This document shows positions 50,146-64,000 of a stretch of DNA of 64,000 bases, one piece after another. Source of the DNA: Bosea sp. 685 (GTDB taxonomy: Bacteria; Pseudomonadota; Alphaproteobacteria; Rhizobiales; Beijerinckiaceae); NCBI RefSeq assembly GCF_031884435.1, contig NZ_CP134779.1, positions 4,774,001 to 4,838,000 on the forward strand, read 5' to 3'. A program made the position numbers and the translations under genes. Positions within the stretch are counted from its first letter, which is position 1. Each line of letters starts with the position of its first letter. Below the pieces are notes generated by a model. That model ran no database searches. It had not been told where the DNA came from and saw only the letters and a program-made list of their open reading frames with translations.

Positions 50146-51399
50146 TCAGCCGATCAGCAGGCCATAGGCGAAGAAGGGCGCGATCGTCCCCTCCTCGATC
50201 CGTGTCAGGCCCTCCGTGAGCTCGACCAGCCCGTCTGTGCGGGTCAATGAGGTCAGGACGCCGGCCCCGTCCTGCGGGTGCTTGCGCGCGACCATGACGC
50301 CGTCGGCGGCCGGCGTCAGCGAGACCCGGACATATTCGCGCCGGCCCGCCTTCTTGACGTAGGGAAAGCCGAGCCGCACCGGCAGCGGCGTCGGCGCGAC
50401 ATAAGCGGCGCCCGCAAGCCGCGCGAGCAGCGGCCGCGCGACGAAGGCGAAGGTGACGAAGACCGCGACCGGATTGCCGGGCAAGCCGATGAAGGGCGTG
50501 GCCCCGACGAGCCCCATCGCGACGGGACGGCCGGGCTTGATGCCGATGCGCCAGAACGCCAGCGAGCCGGCGCGCTCGACCGCCGCCTTGACGTGGTCCT
50601 CCTCGCCGGTCGAGACGCCGCCCGAGGTCAGGATCAGATCGCAGGACGCCGTCGCCTCGGAGAGGCGCCGCGCCAGGCTGACAGGCTCGTCGCGCAGAAT
50701 GCCGAGATCGACGACCTCGGCGCCGGCGCGCGCGACCATGGCGCGCAGCAAGCTGCGATTGGCGTCGTAGATCGCCGCGGGCGCAAGCGCTTCGCCCGGC
50801 TCGGTCAATTCGTCGCCGGTCGAGAAGATCGCGACGCGCGGCCGGCGATGAACGCTCACTTCGATCAGCCCGAGCGCCGCCAAGAGCGCGAGATCCTGCG
50901 GCCGCAGGCGCTGGCCAGCCTTCAGGGCGGTCTCGCCGCGCGCGATATCCTCCCCCGCCGGGCGGGCATTGGCGCCGATCTTCAGCCCGGCGGGCAGCCT
51001 GACGAAGCCGTCGTCGAGCCCGACATCCTCCTGCATGAAGACCGTATCGGCATCTGGCGGCATCGGCGCGCCGGTGAAAACCCGCACCGCGACGCCCGCC
51101 GTCGCGGTGCGGGACGCATCCGCCCCCGCCGCGACGCGGCCCGACAAGCGCAAGCGGCTCTCGCCAGCGGAGGCCAGATCGGCGAAGCGCACGGCATAGC
51201 CATCGACCGCCGAATTGGCGAAGGGCGGCAGGTCGAGCCTCGCCACGACATCCCGCGCCAGCACCCGGCCATCGGCCTCAGTGAGCGCGACATTCTGCAG
51301 TCCCGCCAATGGCGCGACCAGGGAGCCGGCGCGCTCCGCCGCCTGCTCGACGCTCATCAACGCGCCGAAGGCTTCCTCATCCTTGCTGAGCTGGGCCAT
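50146..51399 (-). CDS. moeA: molybdopterin molybdotransferase
   Basis: Inserts molybdate into adenylyl-molybdopterin in the last step of molybdenum cofactor synthesis (417 aa). Signatures are GGVSTGEEDHVKAA near residue 235, GLPGNPVAVFVTF near 290 and FSTGDELTEPGEALAPAAIYDANR near 180. ATG 51399 lies 7 bp after the mobB stop; the longer frame would translate three 15-bp repeats. Its presence after the formate dehydrogenase genes matches the enzyme's need for Mo cofactor. Confidence 0.94.
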   Translation of the reverse strand: MAQLSKDEEAFGALMSVEQAAERAGSLVAPLAGLQNVALTEADGRVLARDVVARLDLPPFANSAVDGYAVRFADLASAGESRLRLSGRVAAGADASRTATAGVAVRVFTGAPMPPDADTVFMQEDVGLDDGFVRLPAGLKIGANARPAGEDIARGETALKAGQRLRPQDLALLAALGLIEVSVHRRPRVAIFSTGDELTEPGEALAPAAIYDANRSLLRAMVARAGAEVVDLGILRDEPVSLARRLSEATASCDLILTSGGVSTGEEDHVKAAVERAGSLAFWRIGIKPGRPVAMGLVGATPFIGLPGNPVAVFVTFAFVARPLLARLAGAAYVAPTPLPVRLGFPYVKKAGRREYVRVSLTPAADGVMVARKHPQDGAGVLTSLTRTDGLVELTEGLTRIEEGTIAPFFAYGLLIG

Positions 51400-51406
51400 G
51401 ACGTCC

Positions 51407-51967
51407 TCACTCTTCCCCGTGTCGCCCTTGCCCGTGTCGCTGCTGCCTGTGCCGCCGCGCCAGCACGGCAGCAAGCGGCTCGGCCGCCGCCAATGCGATA
51501 TCGGCAACCGCCGCAATGTCGTCGAGAGCGACGACCGGGCGCCCCGCCTCGGGAAAGGCGCTGTCGCTCACGACGGCCACGATGCTCGGATCATCGGGAT
51601 GCAAGGCCGGCTTGCCATTGGCCAGGCGGTGGATTTCGATCTTGGCGTGCGGGTCGCGCTTGAAGCCCTCGATGATGACGAGATCGACCGGTGACAGCCG
51701 CTCGAGCAATTCGCCGAGTTTCGCCTCCGGCTCGCCGCGCAACTCCCGCATCAGCGCCCAGCGCCGCTCCGAAGAGATCAGGACCTCGCGCGCGCCGGCC
51801 TGGCGATGCGCGTAGGAATCCTTGCCGGGCGTGTCGAGATCGAAGGCATGATGGGCGTGCTTGAGCGTCGAGACGCCGACGCCGCGACGGCCGAGCTCCG
51901 GGATCAATCGCGTCAGCAGCGTCGTCTTGCCCGCCCCGCTCCATCCCGCCAGACCGATCACGCGCAT
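51407..51967 (-). CDS. mobB: molybdopterin-guanine dinucleotide biosynthesis protein B
   Basis: A 186-residue GTP-binding partner of MobA in making the bis-MGD cofactor used by formate dehydrogenases. It has the P-loop GWSGAGKTTLL near residue 8, STLKHAHHAFDLDTPGKDS (the family's His-rich switch region) and LVIIEGFKRDPHAKIEIHR. ATG 51967 is chosen because it starts MRVIGLAGWSG right at the fold; the upstream ATG at 52003 would include 18-bp repeats. Its C-terminal codons carry 15-bp tandem repeats. Confidence 0.93.
   Translation of the reverse strand: MRVIGLAGWSGAGKTTLLTRLIPELGRRGVGVSTLKHAHHAFDLDTPGKDSYAHRQAGAREVLISSERRWALMRELRGEPEAKLGELLERLSPVDLVIIEGFKRDPHAKIEIHRLANGKPALHPDDPSIVAVVSDSAFPEAGRPVVALDDIAAVADIALAAAEPLAAVLARRHRQQRHGQGRHGEE
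51416..51460. repeat. three 15-bp tandem units at the mobB 3' end
   Basis: CCCGTGTCGCCCTTG (51416-51430), CCCGTGTCGCTGCTG (51431-51445) and the more diverged CCTGTGCCGCCGCGC (51446-51460) encode the mobB tail RRHRQQRHGQGRHGEE on the minus strand, just before the stop. Confidence 0.7.
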
Positions 51968-52117: not shown

Positions 52118-53125
52118 TCACTCCGCCGGCTGCAGCGTCGGGCCGTCCGGCACATGGCCTTTCTGCATCTCCTCGGCGACCCAGAGCGAATGGTGCTCCT
52201 TGGCCCAGTTGAGATCGACCTCGCCGGAGCCCATCGCGTCGAAGGCGCCCTCCATGCCGATCGTGCCGATATAGATATGCGCCAGGATCGCCGCGACCAT
52301 CAGCACGGCGACGATGCCATGCACCACGTTCCAGAACTGCATGGTCAGCACGCCGCCGGAGAAGAACGGGAACAGCAGGTTGAGGCCAGAGAGCGAGAGG
52401 GCCGTGCCGCCGACCACCACTGTCCAGAACACGATCTTCTGGCCGCCATTGAAGCGCTTGGCCGGCGGGTGGCCCTTGCCGACGATGCCGCCGCCGGCGG
52501 CGAACCAACGGACATCGACCATGCCGGGGATGTTGTCCTTGATCCAGACGACGAACATCAGCGCGATGCCGAGCATGAACGGCCAGGCGAGGTAGTTATG
52601 CGCCCATTTCGCCACGACCGAGATATTGGTGAAGGTCTGCGGCCCGACCAATGGCAGCAGCACGAGCTTGCCGAAGGTGACGTTGAGCCCCGACAGCGCC
52701 AGCACGATGAAGCATGCGGCCGTCAGCCAGTGCATGAAGCGCTCAAAACCGTTGAAGCGCGTCAGCGTGCGGCCCGACAGGCCGGACTCGACCCGGATGC
52801 GGCCCCGCACGAGGTAGAACACCGCCAGCAGAAGCAGCGTGCCGAGCACCGCGACGGCGCCGATCTTGACCATGGCGCCCTGATGAAAGGCGCGCCATTC
52901 GCGCCCGGCGGGCCGCTCCAGCGTCGCGGCCTTGCCATCGGGAATGGTGATACGGCCCTTGAGCTCAGCCGAAGGATTGGCCTTCAGCGCGTCGAGGAAC
53001 TGCTGTTCCTTGACCGAGTCAGCAGTCGGGTTGACCTGCTGCGCAAAAGCCGGAACCGCCAGCGCGACAGCGAAGGTCAACAGCAGGCCGGTGACCAGGA
53101 GACGAAGGTGAGCGCCGAGACGCAT
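52118..53125 (-). CDS. formate dehydrogenase gamma subunit (cytochrome b556)
   Basis: Membrane anchor passing electrons from the beta subunit to quinone (335 aa). A signal-peptide-like start (MRLGAHLRLLVTGLLLTFAVALAVPAFA) precedes a periplasmic segment, one extra helix (VKIGAVAVLGTLLLLAVFYL) and the four-helix cytochrome b core. Candidate haem His residues are in FERFMHWLTA, KWAHNYLAW and NVVHGIVAVLMVAAILAHIYIG. The extended N-terminus is typical of alphaproteobacterial FDH gamma. GAGGAA eight bases upstream supports ATG 53125. It follows the beta subunit by 88 bp. Confidence 0.93.
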   Translation of the reverse strand: MRLGAHLRLLVTGLLLTFAVALAVPAFAQQVNPTADSVKEQQFLDALKANPSAELKGRITIPDGKAATLERPAGREWRAFHQGAMVKIGAVAVLGTLLLLAVFYLVRGRIRVESGLSGRTLTRFNGFERFMHWLTAACFIVLALSGLNVTFGKLVLLPLVGPQTFTNISVVAKWAHNYLAWPFMLGIALMFVVWIKDNIPGMVDVRWFAAGGGIVGKGHPPAKRFNGGQKIVFWTVVVGGTALSLSGLNLLFPFFSGGVLTMQFWNVVHGIVAVLMVAAILAHIYIGTIGMEGAFDAMGSGEVDLNWAKEHHSLWVAEEMQKGHVPDGPTLQPAE

Positions 53126-53213: not shown

Positions 53214-53810
53214 CTAGATGGCGATCGTTTCCTTGTAGGCGGTCTGCCAACCCCAGGCGCCGGAGCCATAGCCGCGCTTGACCACCCGCTCCTTGTAGAT
53301 CTGGGCAATGATCTCGCCGTCGCCGGCGAGCAGCGATTTGGTCGAGCACATCTCGGCGCAGAGCGGCAGCTTGCCCTCGGCCAGGCGGTTCGAACCATAT
53401 TTCTGGAACTCGGCCGGGGAGAGATCGACCTCCGGGCCGCCCGAGCAATAGGTGCATTTGTCCATCTTGCCGCGCGAACCGAAATTGCCGACCTTGGGAT
53501 ATTGCGGCGCCCCGAACGGACAGGCGTAGAAGCAATAGCCGCAGCCGATGCAGAGGTCCTTGTTGTGCAGCACGACGCCGTCGGCGGTGTTGTAGAAGCA
53601 GTCGACCGGGCAGACCGCCATGCAAGGCGCGTCCGTACAATGCATGCAGGCCATCGAGATCGAGCGCTCGCCCGGCTTGCCGTCATTGATGGTGACGACG
53701 CGGCGCCGGTTGATGCCCCAGGGCACCTCGTTCTCGTTCTTGCAGGCGGTGACGCAGGCATTGCATTCGATGCAGCGGTCGGCGTCGCAGAGGAATTTCA
53801 TCCGGGCCAT
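53214..53810 (-). CDS. formate dehydrogenase beta subunit (4 x [4Fe-4S] ferredoxin)
   Basis: Electron-transfer subunit of 198 aa. Four cluster-binding Cys groups are visible: CIECNACVTAC near 13-23, CMHCTDAPCMAVCP near 55-68, CIGCGYCFYACP near 87-98, and CTYCSG with a later CAEMC. It would sit between the catalytic alpha subunit and the membrane gamma subunit. It has no signal peptide and should be exported with alpha by the Tat signal. GAGGAA before ATG 53810 and a 14-bp gap to fdh alpha mark an operon. Confidence 0.95.
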   Translation of the reverse strand: MARMKFLCDADRCIECNACVTACKNENEVPWGINRRRVVTINDGKPGERSISMACMHCTDAPCMAVCPVDCFYNTADGVVLHNKDLCIGCGYCFYACPFGAPQYPKVGNFGSRGKMDKCTYCSGGPEVDLSPAEFQKYGSNRLAEGKLPLCAEMCSTKSLLAGDGEIIAQIYKERVVKRGYGSGAWGWQTAYKETIAI

Positions 53811-53824
53811 GATTCAGTTCCTCT

Positions 53825-56806
53825 TCACGCTGCGGCGATCTGGCAGAGCGTGACCTTGCCTTCATGCATGGCGGTCACCGGGTCGTAGCCATAGGTCGTG
53901 AGGGTGTTGACGGACTCGCCGAGCACGATCGGATCCAGCCCCTTGGGGTAGTTCCCACGCTGGTCGACGCCCTGGTAGAAGCCACCGAAATGGAAGGGCA
54001 TGAAGGCGACGCCCTTGCCAACGCGCTCCGTCACCAGCGCCTTGACCTTGGCCTTGGAGTTGTTCTCCGGCCCCGAGACCCAGACGAAGGCGCCGTCCTT
54101 GATGCCGCGCTCGGTCGCGTCCTGCGGGTTGATCTCGACGAACATGTCCTGCTGCAATTCGGCGAGCCATTTGTTCGAGCGCGTTTCCTCGCCGCCGCCC
54201 TCATATTCGACGAGCCGGCCCGAGGTCAGGACGATCGGGAAGGATTTCGCGACGCCGCGCTCCACCGCCGCCTTCTGCATGGTGGTGTGGAGGTTGGGGA
54301 TGCGCAAAGTCCGCTCGTCGGGACGCGCCGGCCATTTCGCCACGAGGTCGACACGCGGCGAGTAGATCGGCTCGCGATGGGTCGGGACCGGATCGGGCAG
54401 GTTCCAGGCATTGGCGCGGGCCTTGCCGTTGCCATAGGGCACACAGCCATGGCTGAGCGCGACGCGCTGGATGCCGCCCGACAGGTCGTTAGCCCAGTTC
54501 ACCGTGTCGATCGCGTTGCCGCCGATCCAGGTAATGGTCGCGATCTCGGCCGGCGTCAGATCCTGATCCCAGCCGAGCTTTTTCAACATGCCCATGGTGA
54601 ATTCGGGATAGCCGTCCTTGATCTCCGAATTCAGCGAGTAGGAGCCGTTCTCGGCCAGCAGCGTGACATTGACCTTGCTGCCGTCAGGCCTGGTCTCCTC
54701 ACGCGTCAGGCCAAAGCGCGGGCGGAAGGTGCCACCGCCATTATTGGCCTCGAGCGCCGTGTTGTAGAGGATATGCGTGCCGGGATGCTTCAAGTCCGGC
54801 GTGCCCCAGCACGGCCAGGGCAAGCCGTAGAAGTCGTTTTCAACAGGCGAGCCCTTGGCGCCGCGCAGCGAGACCAGATCGAACTTGTCCTGGTGCTGCA
54901 TGTGCAGCTTGAGGCGCTCGGGCGACTGCCCGGTATAGCCGGTGGACCAGCCGCCCTTGTTGATCTCGCGCAGGATCGATTCCGCCGAGGGCTCCAGGCC
55001 GTATTTGCCCTGCACCAGCTCGAGGGTCTTGAACATCGGCTCGGCGAAGCCGAGCTTCTGCGCCAGCTTGTAGATGACCCAGTAGTCATTGGCCGATTCG
55101 AAGATCGGATCGACGACCTTCTCGCCCCATTGCACCGAGCGGTTGGAGCAGGTGCGCGAGCCCGCGCATTCGAACTGCGTACCGATCGGCAGCAGATAGG
55201 TGCCGTTCTTGCGCTGACCGAGCGAGACGAAATTGGTCGGGTGCGGGTCGGCCACGACCAGCAATTCGAGCGTTTCCAGCCCCTTCACGGCGTCGGGCAT
55301 GCGCGGGATGGTGTTGCCGCCATGGCCCATGACGATCATGGCCTTGAGGTTATCTTTCTGATCGACCTGCTCGGCGGGCATGTTGGCGGCGTCGAACCAG
55401 CGCGTCGAGGTGTGGCCCGAGGTCTCCATATTGGCCTTGGCCGTGCGGGCCGGGCGGCCGCCCTTGGCGGGCACCTCGTCGAAGCGCGTGACGAAATAGT
55501 CGTAATCGACGCCCCAGACGCGGGCCCAATGGCGCCAGGCGCCTTCGACCAGCCCGTAATAGCAAGGCAGATTCGAGATATCGAGGCCGAAATCGGTCGC
55601 GCCCTGCACGTTGCAATGGCCGCGGAAGATGTTGGCGCCGTTGCCGATGCCGCCGACATTGCCCGTGGCGAGCAGGAGGTTGCAGATCGCCCGGACGTTG
55701 GCCGTGCCAACCGAGTGCTGGGTCACACCCATGCACCAGATGAAGGTCGCCGGCTTGACCTTGGCGAAGGTCTCGGCGGCCCGCTTCAATTGCGCCTCGG
55801 GAACGCCGGTGATGTCCTCGACGGTCTTGGGGTCGTATTTCTCGACCTCCTTGCGGACATCGTCCATGCCGTAGACGCGGGCGGCGAGGAAGTCCTTATC
55901 CTCCCAGCCATTTTTGAAGATGTGCCACATCATGCCCCAGACCACCGCGATGTCGGTGCCGGAGCGGATGCGGATATAATCGGTCGCGTGGGCCGCCGTG
56001 CGGGTCAGGCGCGGATCGAAGACGATGACATTGGCCCGGTTGATCTCCTTGCCGCTCAGGATGTGCTGCATCGAGACCGGATGGGCCTCGGCCGCATTCG
56101 AGCCCATGAACATGATCGTCTTGGAGTTGCGGATGTCGTTGTAGGAGTTCGTCATCGCGCCGTAGCCCCAGGTGTTCGCGACACCTGCGACCGTGGTGGA
56201 GTGGCAGATGCGCGCCTGGTGGTCGACATTGTTGGTGCCCCAGAAGGCGGCGAACTTCCGGAACAGATAGGCGCCCTCATTGGAGAACTTGGCCGAGCCG
56301 AGCAGATAGACGGAATCGGCACCGGACTTGGCCCGGATCTGCATCATCTTGTCGCCGATCTCGCTGATCGCGACATCCCAGCTGATGCGCTGCCACTGCC
56401 CGTCGACCAGCTTCATCGGATACTTGATGCGGCGGTCGCCATGGGTCAGCTCGCGCACCGAGGCGCCCTTGGCGCAATGGCTGCCCCGGTTGATCGGGCT
56501 TTCCCAGGCCGGCTCCTGACCCACCCAGACGCCGTTGGCGACCTCGGCCTTGACGGTGCAGCCGACGGAGCAATGGGTGCAGATGTTCTTGACGATCTTG
56601 GTGCCGCTCGCCGGACCCAGCCCCTCCGCCGCATCCGCCTTGCGGACGGAGCCGATCTGGAGCGCGCCTGCGGCCGCGACGCCGCCGGCGACGAGGCCCG
56701 AACGCCGCAGGAAGGTGCGCCGGTCCATCACGCCCGAGGACAGGCCGGCCATGGCGGCCCGGAGCTTGCCGCGCTGAACATCGGCAGATTTGCGCTTGAT
56801 GAGCAT
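53825..56806 (-). CDS. formate dehydrogenase alpha subunit (Mo-bisMGD, Cys type, Tat-exported)
   Basis: Catalytic subunit oxidising formate to CO2 (993 aa, one open frame). A Tat signal (DRRTFLRRSGLVAGG, RR at 29-30) follows a 27-residue leader. The [4Fe-4S] ligands are C76, C79, C83 and C111. The Mo ligand is C201 in ARICHSTTVAG, so selenocysteine is replaced by Cys. MGSNAAEAHPVS, GHCNVQGATDFG and the C-terminal dinucleotide-binding domain (LTSGRLVEYEGGGEETRSNKWLAEL in part) fit the Fdh-N/O-like group. Export with beta and gamma would give a periplasm-facing respiratory enzyme. Confidence 0.96.
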   Translation of the reverse strand: MLIKRKSADVQRGKLRAAMAGLSSGVMDRRTFLRRSGLVAGGVAAAGALQIGSVRKADAAEGLGPASGTKIVKNICTHCSVGCTVKAEVANGVWVGQEPAWESPINRGSHCAKGASVRELTHGDRRIKYPMKLVDGQWQRISWDVAISEIGDKMMQIRAKSGADSVYLLGSAKFSNEGAYLFRKFAAFWGTNNVDHQARICHSTTVAGVANTWGYGAMTNSYNDIRNSKTIMFMGSNAAEAHPVSMQHILSGKEINRANVIVFDPRLTRTAAHATDYIRIRSGTDIAVVWGMMWHIFKNGWEDKDFLAARVYGMDDVRKEVEKYDPKTVEDITGVPEAQLKRAAETFAKVKPATFIWCMGVTQHSVGTANVRAICNLLLATGNVGGIGNGANIFRGHCNVQGATDFGLDISNLPCYYGLVEGAWRHWARVWGVDYDYFVTRFDEVPAKGGRPARTAKANMETSGHTSTRWFDAANMPAEQVDQKDNLKAMIVMGHGGNTIPRMPDAVKGLETLELLVVADPHPTNFVSLGQRKNGTYLLPIGTQFECAGSRTCSNRSVQWGEKVVDPIFESANDYWVIYKLAQKLGFAEPMFKTLELVQGKYGLEPSAESILREINKGGWSTGYTGQSPERLKLHMQHQDKFDLVSLRGAKGSPVENDFYGLPWPCWGTPDLKHPGTHILYNTALEANNGGGTFRPRFGLTREETRPDGSKVNVTLLAENGSYSLNSEIKDGYPEFTMGMLKKLGWDQDLTPAEIATITWIGGNAIDTVNWANDLSGGIQRVALSHGCVPYGNGKARANAWNLPDPVPTHREPIYSPRVDLVAKWPARPDERTLRIPNLHTTMQKAAVERGVAKSFPIVLTSGRLVEYEGGGEETRSNKWLAELQQDMFVEINPQDATERGIKDGAFVWVSGPENNSKAKVKALVTERVGKGVAFMPFHFGGFYQGVDQRGNYPKGLDPIVLGESVNTLTTYGYDPVTAMHEGKVTLCQIAAA

Positions 56807-56818
56807 GGCGTTGCGCCC

Positions 56819-57037
56819 TCAGTAGCGGTTGACGCGATAGTAGTTCTTGACGTGCTCCGACTCTTGGTAGCGCGCCCTGGTCTCTTCCTTGCCTGGATCG
56901 ACGGCTGCCGCCGGCGTCACCATGGCGGGCGTCACGGCCACCGCCGCGCCGGCACTGAGCGCCTTGAAGAAGCTGCGGCGGTCGAAGGCCGGCGTCACAG
57001 TCTCTTTGGGCTTTTGCTCTTTGGGCTTTTGCGACAT
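56819..57037 (-). CDS. formate dehydrogenase region small TAT-targeted protein
   Basis: A 72-residue protein with a Tat signal (FDRRSFFKALSAGAAVAVTPAM) after a short Lys-rich N-terminus and a 20-residue mature tail (KEETRARYQESEHVKNYYRVNRY). This matches the small twin-arginine proteins recognised in FDH loci (TIGR02811 type). Its role is not established; a Tat escort or small FDH subunit is often suggested. GGAGGA at good spacing fixes ATG 57037. A perfect 15-bp duplication yields QKPKEQKPKE at the N-terminus. Confidence 0.88.
   Translation of the reverse strand: MSQKPKEQKPKETVTPAFDRRSFFKALSAGAAVAVTPAMVTPAAAVDPGKEETRARYQESEHVKNYYRVNRY
57003..57032. repeat. perfect 15-bp duplication at the small TAT protein start
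   Basis: TCTTTGGGCTTTTGC is repeated exactly at 57003-57017 and 57018-57032, in frame, four bases from the start codon. It encodes the doubled QKPKE. Confidence 0.92.
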
Positions 57038-57072
57038 CGTGGTCTCCTCCGCGCCGGGCAGGCTGGCGGACG

Positions 57073-57882
57073 TCATGACGGCAGCCTTGCGGCTTCCGTC
57101 TCGATGGACAGGAACAGGCTGCCGACGCGGCCGACGGCCCGGTAGAATTTCGAAGCCTTCGCAACCGCCAGATCGGCGAAGAGGCGCTCGCCCCAGGGCT
57201 CGATATGGCGCGCATAAAAGGCGCCCGCATCGACGCCCTCGCCCGCGAAGGCGCCGCGGATCAGATTCGCCATGATGTCCATCAGGATGGCGATATGGTC
57301 TTCCGGCTCGCCGGCGCGCTCGGCCCGGGCGATGCCGAGCTTGCCCATATCCTCGCGCACCAGCGCCAGCGGGCGCTCATGCAGGAAACCCGTCAGGTAA
57401 TAGGAGGCGTAGGGCAGGATCTCGCCACGGCCGACGCCGATGAAGAGCTCGAAGAATTCGTCGCGCGCCGCTTCCGGCGTGAGCTCGGCGGCGGCCTCGG
57501 CCAAGGCGAAATGGGCCATGCCGAGCGGCGAGGCATCGCCCCGCAGGCCTTGCAGAACGGCCAGCGTCTCGGCCGTCGGTGCCCGCCAGAGCAAGGCTCC
57601 GATCAACTGGTATTCCTGGGCGCGCGCCTCGTCGATCTCATCGATCGCGGCCGACGAACCACCGTTCATCGAAGCGGGCTGGTGCGGCGCGGTCTCGATG
57701 GGATAGAGATCAGGTCGCAGGTCGGAGCGTGGCACGCCGGTATTGGCTTCGACGGAGAGCACGCGGTCGGCGGGAACACGCTTCCAGCTCGAAATCGCAG
57801 GCTGCGACACGCCCAGGCTGCGCGCCAATGCGCGCACCCCGCCGGCGGCACCGATCGCTCTTTCGAGTGCCGAATCACGCAT
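57073..57882 (-). CDS. HTH (YdaS/Cro-like)-TorD fusion: FDH chaperone with DNA-binding domain
   Basis: A 269-residue two-domain protein. Residues 5-60 are a Cro/YdaS-type helix-turn-helix (GGVRALARSLGVSQPAISSWKRVPADRVL, then TGVPRSDLRPDLYP). Residues about 85-255 are a TorD-family chaperone with FFELFIGVGRGEILPYASYY, FLHERPLALVREDMGKLG and EPEDHIAILMDIMANLIRG. TorD chaperones bind Tat signal peptides of Mo enzymes until the cofactor is inserted. The fusion could link apo-enzyme folding status to transcription. It is the first gene of the fdh operon, and a perfect palindrome lies 58 bp upstream of its start. Confidence 0.92.
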   Translation of the reverse strand: MRDSALERAIGAAGGVRALARSLGVSQPAISSWKRVPADRVLSVEANTGVPRSDLRPDLYPIETAPHQPASMNGGSSAAIDEIDEARAQEYQLIGALLWRAPTAETLAVLQGLRGDASPLGMAHFALAEAAAELTPEAARDEFFELFIGVGRGEILPYASYYLTGFLHERPLALVREDMGKLGIARAERAGEPEDHIAILMDIMANLIRGAFAGEGVDAGAFYARHIEPWGERLFADLAVAKASKFYRAVGRVGSLFLSIETEAARLPS

Positions 57883-57990: not shown

Positions 57991-58743
57991 TTAGATTGGA
58001 ATGGCTCCCCCGCCACGCTTGCGATGGGGAGTCTTCCGCTGCTCCGGCTCGGGATTATTTTGCGCCGCAGCGTAGACCCGATCCGGCGCGACCCGGCCTG
58101 TTTCGGCCTCTTCCGCCGGGTTCGTGCCTGCCTCGCTCACCCTGACATGCCCGACCGCAGCCGGCGCAGGCCGCTCATCTTGCAGCGCGGCGTCATGATT
58201 ACGACTTCCGTCATGCGACGAAAGTTTATGCGACATGCAGTCTCCCGCGCCCTCATCCAGTCCAAAAAGAGCCGGATCGGGCTCCGGGGCATCGCCGAAG
58301 ATGCCGCGCACCATCGCCTCGACATCGTCCGATTCCGTCAACGGGCCGTAGCCCGGCGCGCCGCCCGGCGTGTTCCAGTCGAGCGCATAGTCGCGGGCCG
58401 GATTCTCGAAATCGCGGATCGTCGGATCGCTCTCCCAGGCCCGCCGCATCGCCGCGAGCTTCCAGCTTTCGGGCACGTTCTGCTTGAGCCAATGGGCGAC
58501 GTCGAAATCCTTGTCGATCAGATCGAGCGAGGGCGGCTCGACCATGTCCGGCTCGGATGCGGCGGCCTGCGGCTCAATTTCCCTCGGCAAGGCTTCCTTC
58601 GCCGGTAAGGCTTCCTCCGCCGGCAGCGCTTCGCTCACAGGCGATGGCGGGAGAGTCTCGCCTTGCTCCGCCACGGCGCGCTTGCGCCGCGACCAGCGCG
58701 TCAGGAAGCCTTCGTCGTCGGGATCGCCTGCGCGCGGGCTCAT
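57991..58743 (-). CDS. DUF3306 domain-containing protein
   Basis: A 250-residue soluble protein of unknown function, regularly linked to formate dehydrogenase genes. The conserved core is about 5-165: GFLTRWSRRKRAVAE at the start, DFDVAHWLKQNVPESWKLAAMRRAW, then SDPTIRDFENPARDYALDWNTPGG-type sequence and YGPLTESDDVEAMVRGIFG. The C-terminal 80 residues are low complexity. An 18-bp triple repeat encodes EALPAE/EALPAK/EALPRE before the core. Its ATG overlaps the DUF3305 stop (58740-58743), so the two are coupled. Confidence 0.85.
   Translation of the reverse strand: MSPRAGDPDDEGFLTRWSRRKRAVAEQGETLPPSPVSEALPAEEALPAKEALPREIEPQAAASEPDMVEPPSLDLIDKDFDVAHWLKQNVPESWKLAAMRRAWESDPTIRDFENPARDYALDWNTPGGAPGYGPLTESDDVEAMVRGIFGDAPEPDPALFGLDEGAGDCMSHKLSSHDGSRNHDAALQDERPAPAAVGHVRVSEAGTNPAEEAETGRVAPDRVYAAAQNNPEPEQRKTPHRKRGGGAIPI
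58589..58642. repeat. three 18-bp tandem units in the DUF3306 gene
   Basis: AAGGCTTCCTTCGCCGGT (58589-58606), AAGGCTTCCTCCGCCGGC (58607-58624) and the diverged AGCGCTTCGCTCACAGGC (58625-58642) are in frame and encode a repeated hexapeptide EALP[AR][EK]. Confidence 0.85.
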
Positions 58744-59258
58744 CTCTCGCCCTCATCCCGGCGCAGGCCCGGCTCCGGACGCGGGCCGCCGCCCTTGCGC
58801 GGATCATGCTCGCTGCGCTTGCGCTTGATGAATTCGCGCTCGACATGATGCGCCTCGAAGAAGGCGAGCACCTGTTCGGCGATCAGGGCCGGCATCGGCA
58901 GGGCCTCGACGATGTCCCCGACATTCTCGGCATAGACCTCGCCCTCGAAGGGGTCGGCGGTGACGCCGACGAAATCCAGCTCGGGCTCGATCCCGGTCGG
59001 CCGGATCGCGACCCAGAGCTTGGCGCGGCCGGCCTGGAAGTTCTCGCGGAAATGCGCCGTGTCGACCGAATGCAGCGTCAGCGTCGCCGGGCCGAGATAG
59101 ACGCTGCGCCGGCCAGGCTCGCTGGCAAGCTCGGTCCAGGGCGCAAGCGCCGGCGGCTCGGGCAGCACGGCAAGCGGGCTCCAGGCATGGTCGACCCAGG
59201 GCGAATCGATCGCGCGCCGCTCGACCACGATCCCGACCTCGATGTGCGCTTGCGTCAT
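58740..59258 (-). CDS. DUF3305 domain-containing protein
   Basis: A 172-residue cytoplasmic protein. The conserved start IEVGIVVERRAIDSPWVDHAWSPLAV matches DUF3305; LGPATLTLHSVDTAHFRENF and AKLWVAIRPTG follow. The tail (HDPRKGGGPRPEPGLRRDEGER) is charged and probably disordered. DUF3305 and DUF3306 genes occur together next to formate dehydrogenases in alphaproteobacteria; their molecular roles are unknown to me. It lies 10 bp after the DUF6352-like gene stop. Confidence 0.85.
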   Translation of the reverse strand: MTQAHIEVGIVVERRAIDSPWVDHAWSPLAVLPEPPALAPWTELASEPGRRSVYLGPATLTLHSVDTAHFRENFQAGRAKLWVAIRPTGIEPELDFVGVTADPFEGEVYAENVGDIVEALPMPALIAEQVLAFFEAHHVEREFIKRKRSEHDPRKGGGPRPEPGLRRDEGER

Positions 59259-59268
59259 GTCGCGCTCC

Positions 59269-60279
59269 TCAATTCGTCATCGCGTTTGCTTGCAGGGGCA
59301 GGCCTGCCACGAGATTCTGCGGCTTCAGGCGCAGGACCTTGTCGGCCGACATCGCCATGATGAGATAGATGGGCCTGGCCTGCGCCGCCGCCAACACCGG
59401 CACATCGGGCGGCAGCGTCATCCTGTAGAGCGCCAGCACGCGCGACAGCTCCTCCTCACTGACGCTCCTGCCCTGCCAGAGCGCGTTGCCGATCGCCGTG
59501 GCCTGCGCATCGAGCCCGACGAACCAGCGCCAATCGGCATCCCTGAGGTTCTCGATCGGCTCGATTGCGACATCGAAGCCGTGCAGGGCGCACACCCAAT
59601 GGCGCAGCGCCGCCGCCAGCGCCGCCCGCCCCGATGGCGAACCGCCGAGATCGAGCACCATGTCGAAACCGTCCGAGCGCTGCCAATAGCGGTCGGCATT
59701 GGCGGCTTTGAGGATGTCGAGCGAGGTCACGGCCGGGCCGCCCAGCATGGCGAGCAAAGGCGAGGCATGACGATCGGCCTCATGGCCCTCGATGATCTCG
59801 GCATCGGCCAGAAGGATCGTGTTCTCGTGGTGGGTAACGCGCTGCGGCCGGAACAGGCACTCGGCGGCCCGCACCACATAGGGGTCGTCGACCTCATCGA
59901 GCGCGCCGCGCAGGATGACATGGACGAGCTGGTCGAGGAACAAAGGCGGCACGCCCGCGACGCCCTCGCGGATGATCCGCGCATAGGCCGCCTCCAGCGT
60001 CGGCGCGGCAAGCAACCGGTCGCGCCAGCCGACCAGGAAGCGCCAGTTCTCGCGAGCATCCTCATCTGCGATCGCAGCGATCTCGGCCGCCGCCACCTCG
60101 GCCTGGGGCGCCGCCATCAGCTTGGCGTGCAGCGCGCGCTCGGCCGCGCAGGCCTCGTCGGGCGGCAGCACTTCGGGCCGCGCCAGATAGGCCTTGAGGA
60201 AATCATCGGTGACGACGAGCCCGCCACCGGCAGTGCGGTCCAGCAGGACATGACCGGAAGTCGCCCAGAAATGCATCAT
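59269..60279 (-). CDS. DUF6352-like protein of the formate dehydrogenase cluster
   Basis: A 336-residue soluble, mostly helical protein without recognised catalytic motifs. It starts MMHFWATSGHVLLDRTAGGG and contains ADEDARENWRFLVGWRDRL, FLDQLVHVILRG, PYVVRAAECLFRPQRVT and RYWQRSDGFDMVLDLG. Three or four Cys and many His are present but not in a cluster motif. I assign DUF6352 from memory of this conserved FDH neighbourhood; the number should be checked. Its ATGATG overlaps the preceding gene's TGA at 60276-60278, showing coupling. Confidence 0.7.
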   Translation of the reverse strand: MMHFWATSGHVLLDRTAGGGLVVTDDFLKAYLARPEVLPPDEACAAERALHAKLMAAPQAEVAAAEIAAIADEDARENWRFLVGWRDRLLAAPTLEAAYARIIREGVAGVPPLFLDQLVHVILRGALDEVDDPYVVRAAECLFRPQRVTHHENTILLADAEIIEGHEADRHASPLLAMLGGPAVTSLDILKAANADRYWQRSDGFDMVLDLGGSPSGRAALAAALRHWVCALHGFDVAIEPIENLRDADWRWFVGLDAQATAIGNALWQGRSVSEEELSRVLALYRMTLPPDVPVLAAAQARPIYLIMAMSADKVLRLKPQNLVAGLPLQANAMTN

Positions 60280-60881
60280 GATGCGTCCGTCTTCTTTCGC
60301 GATACCGGCTTCTTGCCCAATACCGGCTTCTTGCCCAGCGCCAGCAGATCGACCTCATCCCGCGGCCCGTCCTCGTCCTCGACCTCCATAAATTCGAAGG
60401 CCCGGAACGCGAAGGCGCGCAAACCCGTGCCGTCCTGCTCGGCGCGCGGGGTGAGCGTGCGGAAACGCTCGCGGATTTCGCCATCCTCCAGTGTCCGGTG
60501 CAAGGCGATCAGCGTTTGCGCCGGATGGTCGCAGAGCGAGGCGGCAAAGGCGATCTCCTCGGCCGCAGCCATGCGCGCCGTGGCAAGATCGGGCGCACCG
60601 AGTTTTGCGACGAGATGGCCGGCAAGCTGCGCGGTCGCGGCCTCGCGCTCCTCCTCCGTCGCCTCGGTCACGACGGCCAGCGTGCTCCAGCCGAAGCTCG
60701 CAACGCCGAGGAAGCCGGAGCGGAAAGCGGTGCGCCCCTTGGCGTCGAGCGCCGCGATCTCGGCGGGGTCGAACAGGAAGGAGCCGGTCACCAGCCACTC
60801 GCCGGGCTCGGCGGCGCGGCGGAAGACGAATGTATCCGACGGGTCGAGCCTGATGGCGCGTGGCAGTTTGAGTGCACTCAC
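60276..60881 (-). CDS. DUF6505-like protein of the formate dehydrogenase cluster
   Basis: A 201-residue soluble protein. The N-terminus KLPRAIRLDPSDTFVFRRAAEPGEW and the next block VTGSFLFDPAEI are the recognisable parts; SGFLGVASFGWSTLAVV and FAFRAFEFMEVEDEDGPRDEVDLLALGKKPVLG follow (in pieces). No catalytic motif is evident. Assignment to DUF6505 is from memory. An exact 18-bp duplication gives LGKKPVLGKKPV in the basic tail. It overlaps both neighbours by 4 bp, within a strictly packed unit. Confidence 0.7.
   Translation of the reverse strand: MSALKLPRAIRLDPSDTFVFRRAAEPGEWLVTGSFLFDPAEIAALDAKGRTAFRSGFLGVASFGWSTLAVVTEATEEEREAATAQLAGHLVAKLGAPDLATARMAAAEEIAFAASLCDHPAQTLIALHRTLEDGEIRERFRTLTPRAEQDGTGLRAFAFRAFEFMEVEDEDGPRDEVDLLALGKKPVLGKKPVSRKKTDAS
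60302..60337. repeat. perfect 18-bp duplication at the DUF6505-like C-terminus
   Basis: ATACCGGCTTCTTGCCCA is repeated at 60302-60319 and 60320-60337, in frame, duplicating a GKKPV-containing hexapeptide just before the stop. Confidence 0.92.
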
Positions 60882-61621
60882 AGCTTGGGCCCGCCGCTGT
60901 CACGGTCGAGCCAGTCGGCCCGGTCCAGCGCCTCGACCAGGCTCCGGCGCTCGGCGCCGCTCTGCGAGGTCGCGATGAGATCGCCATTCGCCTCGATGCC
61001 GTGGCGGGTGCCGACGACCTTATCGAGCCGGTCGAGCCAGCGGCGGGCCACGGCCTTGGGCCCATCGCTTTGCCAATGCGTGACACCGAGCATGAGATGA
61101 CGCGCGAAGGATTCGATCAGATCGACCGCATCGACCTCCTCGAAACCTTCCTCCGTCATGCCGACGCCGGTCTGCCCCAGCGCGAAGGGCGCCATGGTGG
61201 TGGCGCGCAGCATCGCGCCGAAGACGAGCCAATCGGGTACATCGCCCTCGCCGCAGCCTCGCGGCCAGGCGAGCCGGCCGCCGCCGATCAGGCCATGGTC
61301 GTAGATCAGCGCATCAGGCCAGCGGAACAGGACCGGCCGCTCCGGCGGGCAATGCACGGCAAGCGCGTCGGCAAGCGCATTCATCGCGAGGTAGTGGGCG
61401 AGCCGTGCCTCGCCGAGCACGGCGTCGGGCTCCAGCACCACGGCGAATTCGACGATATCGAAGCGGCGCACCCAGACCAGCGTCGCAGCCCCTGCCTCGG
61501 CGGCGATCGCCTGGGCATGGGCGAAGGCGTCGCCGGCTTCGCGCAGGGTCACGAGCGAGAAACCCGGCGGCAGGACAGGCTCCCGCCTGAGATCGTCAGG
61601 GCGCGGGATATTCACCGGCAT
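60878..61621 (-). CDS. biotin/lipoate ligase-fold protein, probably not a classical ligase
   Basis: A 247-residue protein with a BPL/LplA-type fold: LPPGFSLVTLREAGDAFAHAQ, then LAHYLAMNALADAL, FRWPDALIYDHGLIGGGRLAWP near residue 98 (in pieces) and LVFGAMLRAT. In BirA the matching segment is KWPND followed by a Lys-containing loop; here it is RWPDA and HGLIG, so both lysines are absent. It may bind a cofactor or peptide rather than attach biotin. It leads the unit ligase-DUF6505-DUF6352-DUF3305-DUF3306 and is divergent from the ferredoxin gene. Start ATG 61621 gives the full fold. Confidence 0.8.
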   Translation of the reverse strand: MPVNIPRPDDLRREPVLPPGFSLVTLREAGDAFAHAQAIAAEAGAATLVWVRRFDIVEFAVVLEPDAVLGEARLAHYLAMNALADALAVHCPPERPVLFRWPDALIYDHGLIGGGRLAWPRGCGEGDVPDWLVFGAMLRATTMAPFALGQTGVGMTEEGFEEVDAVDLIESFARHLMLGVTHWQSDGPKAVARRWLDRLDKVVGTRHGIEANGDLIATSQSGAERRSLVEALDRADWLDRDSGGPKL

Positions 61622-61741
61622 CGACCTCTTGCTCCCCGGTGGCGCGACGAATTGCTCATCGCCGGTTTCTTTTGAACCTTTCCAATTCCATATAAGCCTC
61701 GATTGTCGCAAGAGAGACGAAAAGACGCTCCCGGCAGATCG

Positions 61742-61771
61742 GCCAAGGACGTGAACGCCAAGGAAGTGAAC
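61742..61771. repeat. 15-bp tandem duplication at the ferredoxin gene start
   Basis: GCCAAGGACGTGAAC (61742-61756) and GCCAAGGAAGTGAAC (61757-61771) differ at one base and end 3 bp before the ATG at 61775. The second copy contains the AAGGA ribosome-binding sequence, so the duplication doubles it. Confidence 0.88.
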
Positions 61772-61774
61772 GTA

Positions 61775-63814
61775 ATGACCGGCACCGCACGCACGCTGAT
61801 GGTCTGCTCCTGCGAAGACACGATGCCGCTCGATGGCGAGGCGCTGGCGCGTGGCTGCAAGGGCAGCGAGATCAGGACGGCGCGGCATCTCTGCCGCACG
61901 CAGACGGAGATCTTCACCAAGCTGCTCGGCGAGCGCGACGCCATTACCGTCGGCTGCACGCAGGAGGCCCCGCTTTTTGAAGAAATCGCCGCGGATCTCG
62001 ACTACTCCGGCGATCTCGTCTTCGCCAATATCCGTGAGACCGGCGGCTGGGCGCGCGAGGCGAAGTCGGCCGGCCCCAAGATGGCAGCTCTGCTGGCGGC
62101 CGCAGCCGAGCCGATGCCGCCGGCGAGCTTCACCACCTTGGAAAGCAAGGGCGTGGCGCTGATCTATGGCCATGACGAGGTCGCGCTCTCGGTCGGGCAG
62201 AGCCTGGCAGAGCATCTCGACGTCACCATCCTGCTCTCGCGGCCCGGCGAGATCACGCCGCCGCGCCTCTCCGACATCCCGGTGCTGAAGGGCACGATCG
62301 TCGCCGCGACCGGCTGGCTTGGCGCCTTCGATCTGACGGTCAATGATTACGCCGCGCCCTCCCCGTCCTCGCGAAGCAAGCTCGTCTTCGGCGAAGCGCG
62401 CAATGGCGCGAACTCGCAATGCGACATCGTCATTGACGTCTCCGGCGGTGCGCCGCTCTTCCCGGCCGGCGATTTGCGCGCCGGCTATCTGCGCGCCGAC
62501 CCACGCGACAAGGCAGCGATCGAGCGCCTGATCGGACAGGCCAGCCACCTCGTCGGCGAGTTCGACAAGCCGGCTTACGTCCGGCTGAACCAGGATCTTT
62601 GCGCCCATTCGCGCTCGTCCAAGACCGGCTGCACGCGCTGCCTCGAGCTCTGCCCGACCGGTGCGATCACGCCAGCGGGCGACCATGTCGCGATCTCGGC
62701 CGAGATCTGCGCCGGCTGCGGCGCCTGCGCCGCCGTCTGCCCAACCGGCGCCGTGACCTACGCCCTGCCGCCGACCGACGCGCTGCTGCGCCGCCTGCGC
62801 ACCTTGCTGACCACCTATACTGAGGCCGGCGGCCGCGAGGCCGTGCTGCTGCTGCATGATGGCGAGCATGGCGAGGCGCTGATCGACGCGCTCGCCCGCT
62901 TTGGTGATGGCCTGCCGGCGCGCGTGCTGCCGCTGCGCGTCAACGAGATCACACAGATCGGGCTTGAGACCCATGCGGCGGCGCTGGCTTTCGGAGCGTC
63001 CGCCATCCGCGTGCTCGGCCGCGCCAAACCGAAGCACGACCTCTCCGGCCTGACCCGCAATCTCGATTACGCCAACGCGCTCGCAGGCGCGCTCGGCTAT
63101 GGCGAGAGCCGCGCCGGGCTGATCGAGACCGACGACCCCGAGCAATTGGCGCAGGCGCTGGCGCGGATCGCACCCGGCGCCATCAGCGCGACGCCGGCCC
63201 GCTTCCGCCCGATGGGCGATGGCCGGCCGCTGCTGCGCCAGACGGTCGGGGAACTGCATGCCGCCGCTCCGACGCCCGTCGCGGCTGTGGCGATGCCGCC
63301 GCTCGCCCCTTTTGGGACGATCCATGTCGACAGCGAGGGCTGCACGCTCTGCCTGGCTTGCGTCTCCGCCTGCCCGGTGCAAGCGCTCTCGGACAATCCC
63401 GATCGCCCGACGCTCGCCTTCCAGGAAGACCTTTGCGTGCAATGCGGCCTCTGCGCCGCGACCTGCCCGGAAAAGGTGATCACTCTGGAGCCGCGCATCG
63501 ATTTCGACGCCTGGGCCGGCGGCAAGCGCGTGCTGAAGCAGGAAGAGCCCTTCCACTGCATCAACTGCGCCAAACCCTTCGGCGTCAGGAGCACGATCGA
63601 GAAGATCGCGGCCAAGCTGGAGAACAAGCACTGGATGTTCTCGGGCGACGCCGCCAAGCGCATCTCGGTGATCAGGATGTGCGAGGATTGCCGCGTCGAG
63701 GTCGTGGTCAATGAGAGCTTCGACCCACATCTCTCGCCGCAGCGCCCGCCCGTGCGCACCACGGATGATTATCTGCGCGAACGCGCCGAGCGGGGCGAGG
63801 ATCCGTTGCAGTAG
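61775..63814 (+). CDS. large multi-cluster [4Fe-4S] ferredoxin-type protein of the FDH locus
   Basis: A 679-residue cytoplasmic iron-sulfur protein. It begins with a CxC pair (C11, C13 in VCSCEDTMPL) and an N-terminal Rossmann-like part (GVALIYGHDEVALSVGQSLAEHL). A first ferredoxin pair (GCTRCLELCPTGA, CAGCGACAAVCPTGA) is near 285-325. A helical domain follows, then a second pair (CTLCLACVSACPVQA, CVQCGLCAATCPEKV) near 525-565, and two more CxxC sites (HCINCAKPF, MCEDCRVEV). This suggests four [4Fe-4S] clusters plus extra metal sites. An electron carrier or assembly factor for the formate dehydrogenase is inferred from position. ATG 61775 has AAGGA upstream. Confidence 0.85.
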   Translation: MTGTARTLMVCSCEDTMPLDGEALARGCKGSEIRTARHLCRTQTEIFTKLLGERDAITVGCTQEAPLFEEIAADLDYSGDLVFANIRETGGWAREAKSAGPKMAALLAAAAEPMPPASFTTLESKGVALIYGHDEVALSVGQSLAEHLDVTILLSRPGEITPPRLSDIPVLKGTIVAATGWLGAFDLTVNDYAAPSPSSRSKLVFGEARNGANSQCDIVIDVSGGAPLFPAGDLRAGYLRADPRDKAAIERLIGQASHLVGEFDKPAYVRLNQDLCAHSRSSKTGCTRCLELCPTGAITPAGDHVAISAEICAGCGACAAVCPTGAVTYALPPTDALLRRLRTLLTTYTEAGGREAVLLLHDGEHGEALIDALARFGDGLPARVLPLRVNEITQIGLETHAAALAFGASAIRVLGRAKPKHDLSGLTRNLDYANALAGALGYGESRAGLIETDDPEQLAQALARIAPGAISATPARFRPMGDGRPLLRQTVGELHAAAPTPVAAVAMPPLAPFGTIHVDSEGCTLCLACVSACPVQALSDNPDRPTLAFQEDLCVQCGLCAATCPEKVITLEPRIDFDAWAGGKRVLKQEEPFHCINCAKPFGVRSTIEKIAAKLENKHWMFSGDAAKRISVIRMCEDCRVEVVVNESFDPHLSPQRPPVRTTDDYLRERAERGEDPLQ

Positions 63815-63958: not shown

Positions 63959-64000
63959 TCACCGCGTCACCTTCTCCAGCCAATCCACCAGAGCCTGCCG
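63959..64000 (-). CDS. possible C-terminal end of a gene running in from the right
   Basis: Reading the minus strand from the window edge gives RQALVDWLEKVTR followed by TGA (63961-63959). The composition is protein-like and the stop is directly next to the palindromic element, as expected for a convergent gene end. Only 13 residues are visible, so no family can be named. Confidence 0.4.
   Translation of the reverse strand, partial: RQALVDWLEKVTR

Follow-up and report, generated by a model that had tools for sequence, protein, structure and literature searches.

Enzymes that carry a molybdenum or tungsten bis-pyranopterin guanine dinucleotide cofactor are served by operon-linked, enzyme-specific helpers, the familiar examples being the NarJ/TorD/DmsD proteins with FdhD/FdhE. 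For formate dehydrogenases (FDHs), genes for DUF3305, DUF3306 and a fer4 protein were noted in 2015 beside dmsD/torD-fdhGHI operons, the DUF3305/DUF3306 pair lying upstream of dmsD-linked fdhGHI at 60% (Bay et al., PMC4464133), and a tungsten maturation route through MoeA1, MobB, MobA and FdhD has been described for MeFDH1 (PMC13197769). When metal formate dehydrogenases are produced in foreign hosts, the limiting steps come after translation, as shown for MeFDH1 (PMC13396061). Here we analyse a 64,000-nucleotide stretch of the 6.8 Mb genome of Bosea sp. 685 (NZ_CP134779.1, positions 4,774,001 to 4,838,000; hereafter "the window"), in which five head-to-tail accessory genes and a divergent polyferredoxin gene adjoin an fdh operon. 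These genes probably constitute a dedicated cytoplasmic maturation set for a formate dehydrogenase of the Cys-type FDH3 class that is exported by twin-arginine translocation (Tat), as judged from sequence and genome comparison.

Set beside the described systems, the island is an enzyme-specific maturation set of a familiar sort with unfamiliar members. It contains TorD and FdhD, but its DUF3305, DUF3306, DUF6352, DUF6505 and biotin protein ligase-like (BPL-like) proteins match no TorD, FdhD or FdhE Pfam family and show no profile similarity to the island TorD. The company of DUF3305, DUF3306, fer4, Tat peptide and fdh genes is that of the dmsD/torD-fdhGHI operons, whereas DUF6352, DUF6505 and the BPL-like gene are not mentioned in the portion of PMC4464133 that deals with these operons. 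That portion also calls DUF3305 and DUF3306 putative membrane proteins, for which the island offers little support: the maximum 19-residue hydrophobic mean is below 1.6 in DUF3305 (1.57), DUF3306, DUF6352, DUF6505 and the BPL-like protein of the window, so none of the five looks like a membrane protein, and among relatives this value is exceeded by 0 of 78 DUF3306 and 4 of 55 DUF3305 sequences. With the MeFDH1 route the island shares a dedicated MoeA with Arg at the R291 position, MobB, MobA and FdhD; MeFDH1 is, however, a different, alpha-beta enzyme, and DUF3305 and the rest do not feature in the corresponding part of PMC13197769. The original prediction, made from the window alone, had presented the module as a candidate undescribed one, listing DUF3305/DUF3306 as known companions of FDH genes. 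This fits DUF6352, DUF6505 and the BPL-like protein, for which no description was found in the open-licence literature, and does not fit the DUF3305/DUF3306/fer4 association of 2015.

Gene layout and identity of the enzyme

The five accessory genes lie on the minus strand and encode, in order, a DUF3306 protein (57991-58743, 250 residues; Pfam PF11748, 56.7 bits), a DUF3305 protein (58740-59258, 172 residues; PF11749, 104 bits), a DUF6352 protein (59269-60279, 336 residues; PF19879, 217.7 bits), a DUF6505 protein (60276-60881, 201 residues, GTG start; PF20115, 194.8 bits) and a BPL/LplA-fold protein (60878-61621, 247 residues from ATG; PF16917, 173 bits). Neighbouring genes overlap by 4 bp at three of the four junctions; at the second, between DUF3305 and DUF6352, there is a 10-bp gap. 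A divergent gap of 153 bp separates the BPL-like gene from the plus-strand polyferredoxin gene (61775-63814, 679 residues from ATG, with an alternative in-frame TTG start possible at 61703). The packing first described for these six genes beside fdh, including every coordinate and junction, is thus correct, and the labels "DUF6505-like" and "DUF6352-like" can be firmed up, all five minus-strand proteins being Pfam family members above curated cut-offs.

The fdh operon follows directly on the same strand, in the order TorD, Tat peptide, fdhA, fdhB, fdhC, mobB and moeA, and the adjacency of DUF3305 and DUF3306 to TorD/DmsD, Tat peptide and fdh genes fits the DUF3305/DUF3306-fdh operon kind. The presumed client is the 993-residue alpha subunit encoded by fdhA (53825-56806, minus strand), which has the active-site segment RICHSTTVAG. 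The beta subunit (fdhB, 53214-53810, minus strand) passes the NCBI FDH3_beta equivalog model NF038355 (340.3 bits vs a cut-off of 240), by which the enzyme of the island is classed as an FDH3-type formate dehydrogenase. An active-site Cys in place of selenocysteine, as predicted, is read in the RICH segment of the window FdhA and was matched by our search pattern in 91 of 101 long FdhA frames; eight of the other ten read RICHSTTV(T/S)G, and two (from loci L264 and L194) gave no clear reading. The small "formate dehydrogenase region TAT target" protein between TorD and fdhA (56819-57076, minus strand) scores 39.2 bits with TIGR02811, below the cut-off of 48.45.

Co-distribution with FDH3 and conservation of gene order

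Two genome samples were searched, 61 relatives (the Bosea sp. 685 genome included) and 279 genomes across the phylum, which share 3 genomes and give 337 distinct ones; FDH3 alpha was called at E <= 1e-100 in the relatives and E <= 1e-80 in the phylum sample. FDH3 alpha and DUF3305 occur in identical sets of genomes (70 of 337 positive, 0 discordant). Among the relatives, FDH3 alpha, DUF3305 and DUF6352 are found in the same 35 of 61 genomes and DUF6505 with strong PF16917 matches in the same 34, G048 being the sole FDH3 genome that has neither of the latter. Within Bosea, 25 of 37 genomes carry FDH3, DUF3305, DUF6352, DUF6505 and the BPL-like gene, and the other 12 carry none of them. In the phylum sample, FDH3 alpha and DUF3305 coincide in 36 of 279 genomes, and DUF6505 (20), the FDH-type BPL-like gene (19) and DUF6352 (14) all fall inside these 36. 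The FDH-type group of PF16917 comprises scores of at least 132 bits in the relatives and at least 165 in the phylum sample, a clear gap above the next scores of 95.9 and 39.8. No genome among the 337 has DUF3305, DUF6352, DUF6505 or the FDH-type BPL-like gene without FDH3, which bears out the link to fdh that had been proposed from gene order. DUF3305 was also absent from all 14 control genomes, E. coli among them; the FDH enzymes of E. coli work without DUF3305.

Four genomes carry such genes away from the fdh locus: DUF6352 in G079, G260 and G289, and DUF6352 with DUF6505 in G076, in each case some 170 kb or more away from fdhA, the scanned neighbours being unrelated genes. Since these genes are co-retained far from fdh, linkage alone does not explain the co-distribution.

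Gene maps of 134 loci define a common core of DUF3305, DUF3306, polyferredoxin, TorD, Tat peptide and fdhABC. Occurrence of DUF3306 and polyferredoxin was counted at fetched loci; at 42 fetched FdhA loci, DUF3305 was present in 39, DUF3306 in 38, polyferredoxin in 37, TorD in 40 and the Tat peptide in 41. A further 80 loci from named genome records were fetched via DUF6505, which is therefore present by construction, and wherever the contig left room they contained the BPL-like gene (77/77), DUF6352 (78/78), DUF3305 (76/76), DUF3306 (71/72), polyferredoxin (65/65) and fdhA (58/58). Of the 53 loci with enough flanking sequence, 50 kept the strands and the polyferredoxin-to-fdhA order under strict criteria, so the arrangement first seen in the window is widely kept; L256 and L270 failed solely through overlapping stop-to-stop frames, and L269 (Aurantimonas) is truly rearranged. 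The 4-bp overlap recurs in 68 of 79 DUF6505/DUF6352 pairs and 69 of 74 DUF3305/DUF3306 pairs, and is found in 35 of 79 BPL-like/DUF6505 pairs and 32 of 78 DUF6352/DUF3305 pairs, the latter being the junction with a 10-bp gap in the window.

The set is divisible into this core and differently distributed add-ons, namely DUF6505 with the BPL-like gene, and DUF6352. Among the 36 FDH3 genomes of the phylum sample, 10 have all add-ons, 9 have DUF6505 and the BPL-like gene without DUF6352, 3 have DUF6352 as their sole add-on, G076 combines DUF6505 with DUF6352 but has no BPL-like gene, and 13 have neither DUF6505 nor DUF6352, a pattern at odds with the single machine envisaged in the original prediction. 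In a tree of 41 FdhA sequences, the group with DUF6505 and the BPL-like gene but without DUF6352 forms one clade (8 rows, support 100/100), and the remaining add-on groupings require several gains or losses.

Sequence features of the accessory proteins

In the 382-residue NCBIfam model NF011058, which describes a MobA-DUF3305 fusion, residues 218-369 are matched by DUF3305 of the window (60.4 bits) and residues 12-198 by the MobA of the island; in Bosea the two halves are separate genes. Given this common model, the place of DUF3305 in cofactor handling is most likely beside the step at which MobA attaches the guanine nucleotide. DUF3306 has conserved RWs.RK and AL...W...P segments across 78 non-redundant relatives. 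It shares a single frame with TorD in L194 (one case) and is fused to DUF3305 in L223 (one case, possibly an assembly error). The polyferredoxin has four [4Fe-4S]-type motifs and, invariant in 50 non-redundant relatives, a CxxC...CxxC pair near the C-terminus.

The TorD-family chaperone (57073-57882, minus strand; PF02613 at residues 117-235) begins with a Cro/YdaS-like helix-turn-helix (PF15943, residues 6-60). A like extension was seen in 64 of 112 FDH3-linked TorD frames, including that of the window, and not in the other 48. By binding DNA, such a chaperone could link enzyme assembly with transcription.

The BPL-like protein was assigned to the BPL/LplA fold by sequence, through PF16917 and PDB 3bfm. 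The latter was deposited as a "biotin protein ligase-like protein of unknown function"; its match to the FDH-linked profile is full-length, so that a structure for this family is already available. The fold family is that of BirA and the lipoate ligases, but when 27 FDH-linked members were aligned with an intact biotin ligase (L147), the GRGRxGRxW motif, which we take to be the adenylate loop, was found in none of the 27, and the Lys of RKxxG, presumably the catalytic residue of biotin and lipoate ligases, was missing in 26 of 27, being Leu in the window protein. These losses point to a pseudo-ligase, its active site gone. This is the one member whose predicted lack of catalytic motifs was examined and upheld; DUF6352 has many invariant polar residues (R34, E36, E47, E140, R144, D159, K319 and N322 in 39 non-redundant relatives), in view of which an enzymatic role may be considered. 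A Cys stands at position 44 in 97% of the same relatives. DUF6352 has no PF02613 match, profile comparison with the island TorD gave a probability of 0.4%, and a limited structure search with its AlphaFold2 model returned no TorD chain among the matches listed. The model has a mean predicted local distance difference test score of 91; that of DUF6505 has a mean of 81, with block means of 94-98 over residues 21-140, and both models are well folded.

MoeA and the metal of FDH3

The last two genes of the operon are mobB (51407-51967, minus strand, start inferred; TIGR00176, 146.6 bits, over the cut-off) and moeA (50146-51396, minus strand, start inferred). The island MoeA reads IKPG-R...GLPGNPV-A, which puts a MoeA1-type Arg in the oxyanion pocket; our alignment shows K and S at the two positions in E. 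coli MoeA, and the tungsten insertase MoeA1 of M. extorquens has Arg291 and Ala312 (PMC13197769). The MoeA1 R291K variant allowed FDH to be activated, with Mo detectable; the authors point out that a second MoeA remained (PMC13197769). The 90 MoeA-like frames in the fetched stretches divide into 34 R/A, 27 K/S and 29 off pattern, the inspected K/S frames belonging to a different MoeA paralogue, and all five named island records (L282, L283, L293, L295 and L296) are R/A. In 11 alphaproteobacterial plasmid MoeA sequences not known from FDH islands, the first position is K throughout and the second is S in 6 and A in 5; as Ala also occurs in these controls, it is the Arg that sets the island MoeA apart. 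Genes of tungstate-type ATP-binding cassette (ABC) transporters recur near FDH3, in 9 to 15 of 43 diverse FDH3 stretches (each at most about 20 kb) depending on the component. The metal of FDH3 is likely tungsten, as far as MoeA signatures can indicate, and the label "Mo-FDH" given to the enzyme at the outset is doubtful, given that the MoeA of the island has the Arg typical of tungsten-type MoeA1.

Proposed role and alternative explanations

In the maturation pathway that we favour, the metal bis-guanine-dinucleotide cofactor would be the product of MobB, MobA and MoeA, the last probably an insertase that prefers tungstate; DUF3305 would stand at the MobA exit and hand the cofactor on, and FdhD would add sulfur. 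FdhA, still unfolded, and its signal peptide would be held by DUF3306 and TorD. Before export, FdhA and FdhB would receive electrons or Fe-S clusters from the polyferredoxin, aided by an Mrp-type carrier of the island. In some hosts, chiefly Alphaproteobacteria, additional scaffolds for holding or loading would be provided by the pseudo-ligase together with DUF6505, and by DUF6352. A more specific and unlikely scheme makes the dead biotin ligase and DUF6505, with DUF6352, a cofactor-loading complex that would take the tungsten bis-guanine-dinucleotide from the MobA-DUF3305 station and seat it in FDH3, the former adenylate pocket binding the guanine or pterin end. If these proteins are true FDH3 assembly factors, they provide a parts list for making FDH3 in other hosts and give several DUF families, as well as the orphan structure 3bfm, a function that can be tested; a ligase fold minus its active site would then count as a new sort of helper for metalloenzymes.

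Several observations weigh against a dedicated maturation set. The agreement of the FDH3 and DUF3305 genome sets is inflated by relatedness and is far weaker evidence than naive odds would suggest, and the phylum-sample FDH search scored the best 3 candidates per genome. PF16917 as a whole is not FDH-specific, with matches in 160 of the 279 and 39 of the 61 genomes, and the score cut that delimits its FDH-type group was picked after the scores were known. Some FDH3 loci are without core genes (DUF3305 in 3, DUF3306 in 4, polyferredoxin in 5 and TorD in 2 of the 42 FdhA loci); some of these misses are contig breaks, and others are second FDH copies (L168 and L194) and G076 (L196). L168 is a second copy with the Tat peptide as its sole core gene, and L170, L194 and L196 each miss one core gene within the stretch. 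The add-ons are dispensable in the 13 genomes counted above, and the FDH3 lineage of G169/G258b, nested among carriers in the FdhA tree, has none at its locus. FdhD went undetected in the FDH3 genomes G052 and G060, both incomplete assemblies. The curated cut-off of NF011058 lies far above both partial matches, the fusion being known here from the model alone; the DUF6352 and DUF6505 models gave no confident match to a known chaperone or to any other PDB entry; and the polyferredoxin could equally serve electron transfer.

That last point leads to the main rival, which we consider quite unlikely: an electron-delivery set, in which the polyferredoxin and its partners would link FDH3 to a cytoplasmic or membrane acceptor and the DUF proteins would be conduit subunits. 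A 679-residue protein with four Fe-S motifs and a CxxC pair, divergent from the accessory operon, is what such a set might contain, and a WD40-propeller cytochrome c gene occurs in 20 of the 43 diverse stretches, in several of them directly after fdhC. This cytochrome is more likely an electron acceptor of finished FDH3 than a maturation factor. Against the electron-delivery set, fdhA is found with TorD and a Tat-type leader protein, and FDH3 brings its own beta subunit and cytochrome b gamma subunit (fdhC, 52118-53125, minus strand; TIGR01583, 150.9 bits, over the cut-off), which would leave a cytoplasmic ferredoxin on the wrong side. The partners have no Fe-S family match in Pfam, and DUF3305 is tied to MobA by the fusion model.

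It is very unlikely that the three add-ons serve metal selection, sorting tungsten and molybdenum cofactors between FDH3 and other molybdoenzymes and having no part in folding. The MoeA1-type Arg in 34 frames of FDH3 stretches and 5/5 island records, against Lys in 11/11 controls, and the recurrent tungstate-type ABC genes would suit such a role, but an R-type MoeA is also present in the FDH1 island L293, where none of the add-ons appears over 17 kb, so the Arg does not track them, and no tup or other tungstate-type ABC genes were found in the window or the 11 kb that follow it. That the accessory genes are regulatory or stress-protection genes merely riding in the same operon appears highly improbable: the helix-turn-helix of the Bosea TorD suggests that some regulation is built in, but the genes are kept with FDH3 even where unlinked (G076, G079, G260 and G289), and the five have no DNA-binding family match in Pfam.

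Extension of the island and plasmid-borne copies

The window end cuts the FDH3 island short, as a 17-kb stretch running past it (L281) shows; beyond the end lie genes for the WD40-propeller cytochrome c, an Mrp/NUBPL-type Fe-S carrier, MobA and FdhD. The cytochrome c gene (minus strand; PF00400, PF00034) has its 3' end in the window (63959-64000) and spans 63959-65752 in window-equivalent numbering (L281:2960-4753). It is absent from the recurrent-family list at L194 (the second FDH3 copy of G258) and L192 (G169), which represent a second FDH3 lineage with no add-ons at the locus. The Mrp gene (L281:4684-5808), part of the island, has counterparts in 12 of the 43 diverse stretches, and in Alloyangia it is placed between the polyferredoxin (with DUF6494) and the pseudo-ligase. 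FdhD is found in 15 and MobA in 11 of the 43. The island FdhD lies about 5 kb past the window end, a second copy is encoded elsewhere in the genome, and FdhD occurs in 54 of the 61 relatives, both with and without FDH3.

The Sinorhizobium meliloti and Alloyangia records have the same core genes with FdhD and MobA, plus tupBCA-like genes or Mrp. The whole FDH3 set is also plasmid-borne (L282 and L283), one of these plasmids, from S. meliloti, being typed as conjugative, and among 72,556 plasmid records there were 77 DUF3305 and 78 DUF6505 matches.

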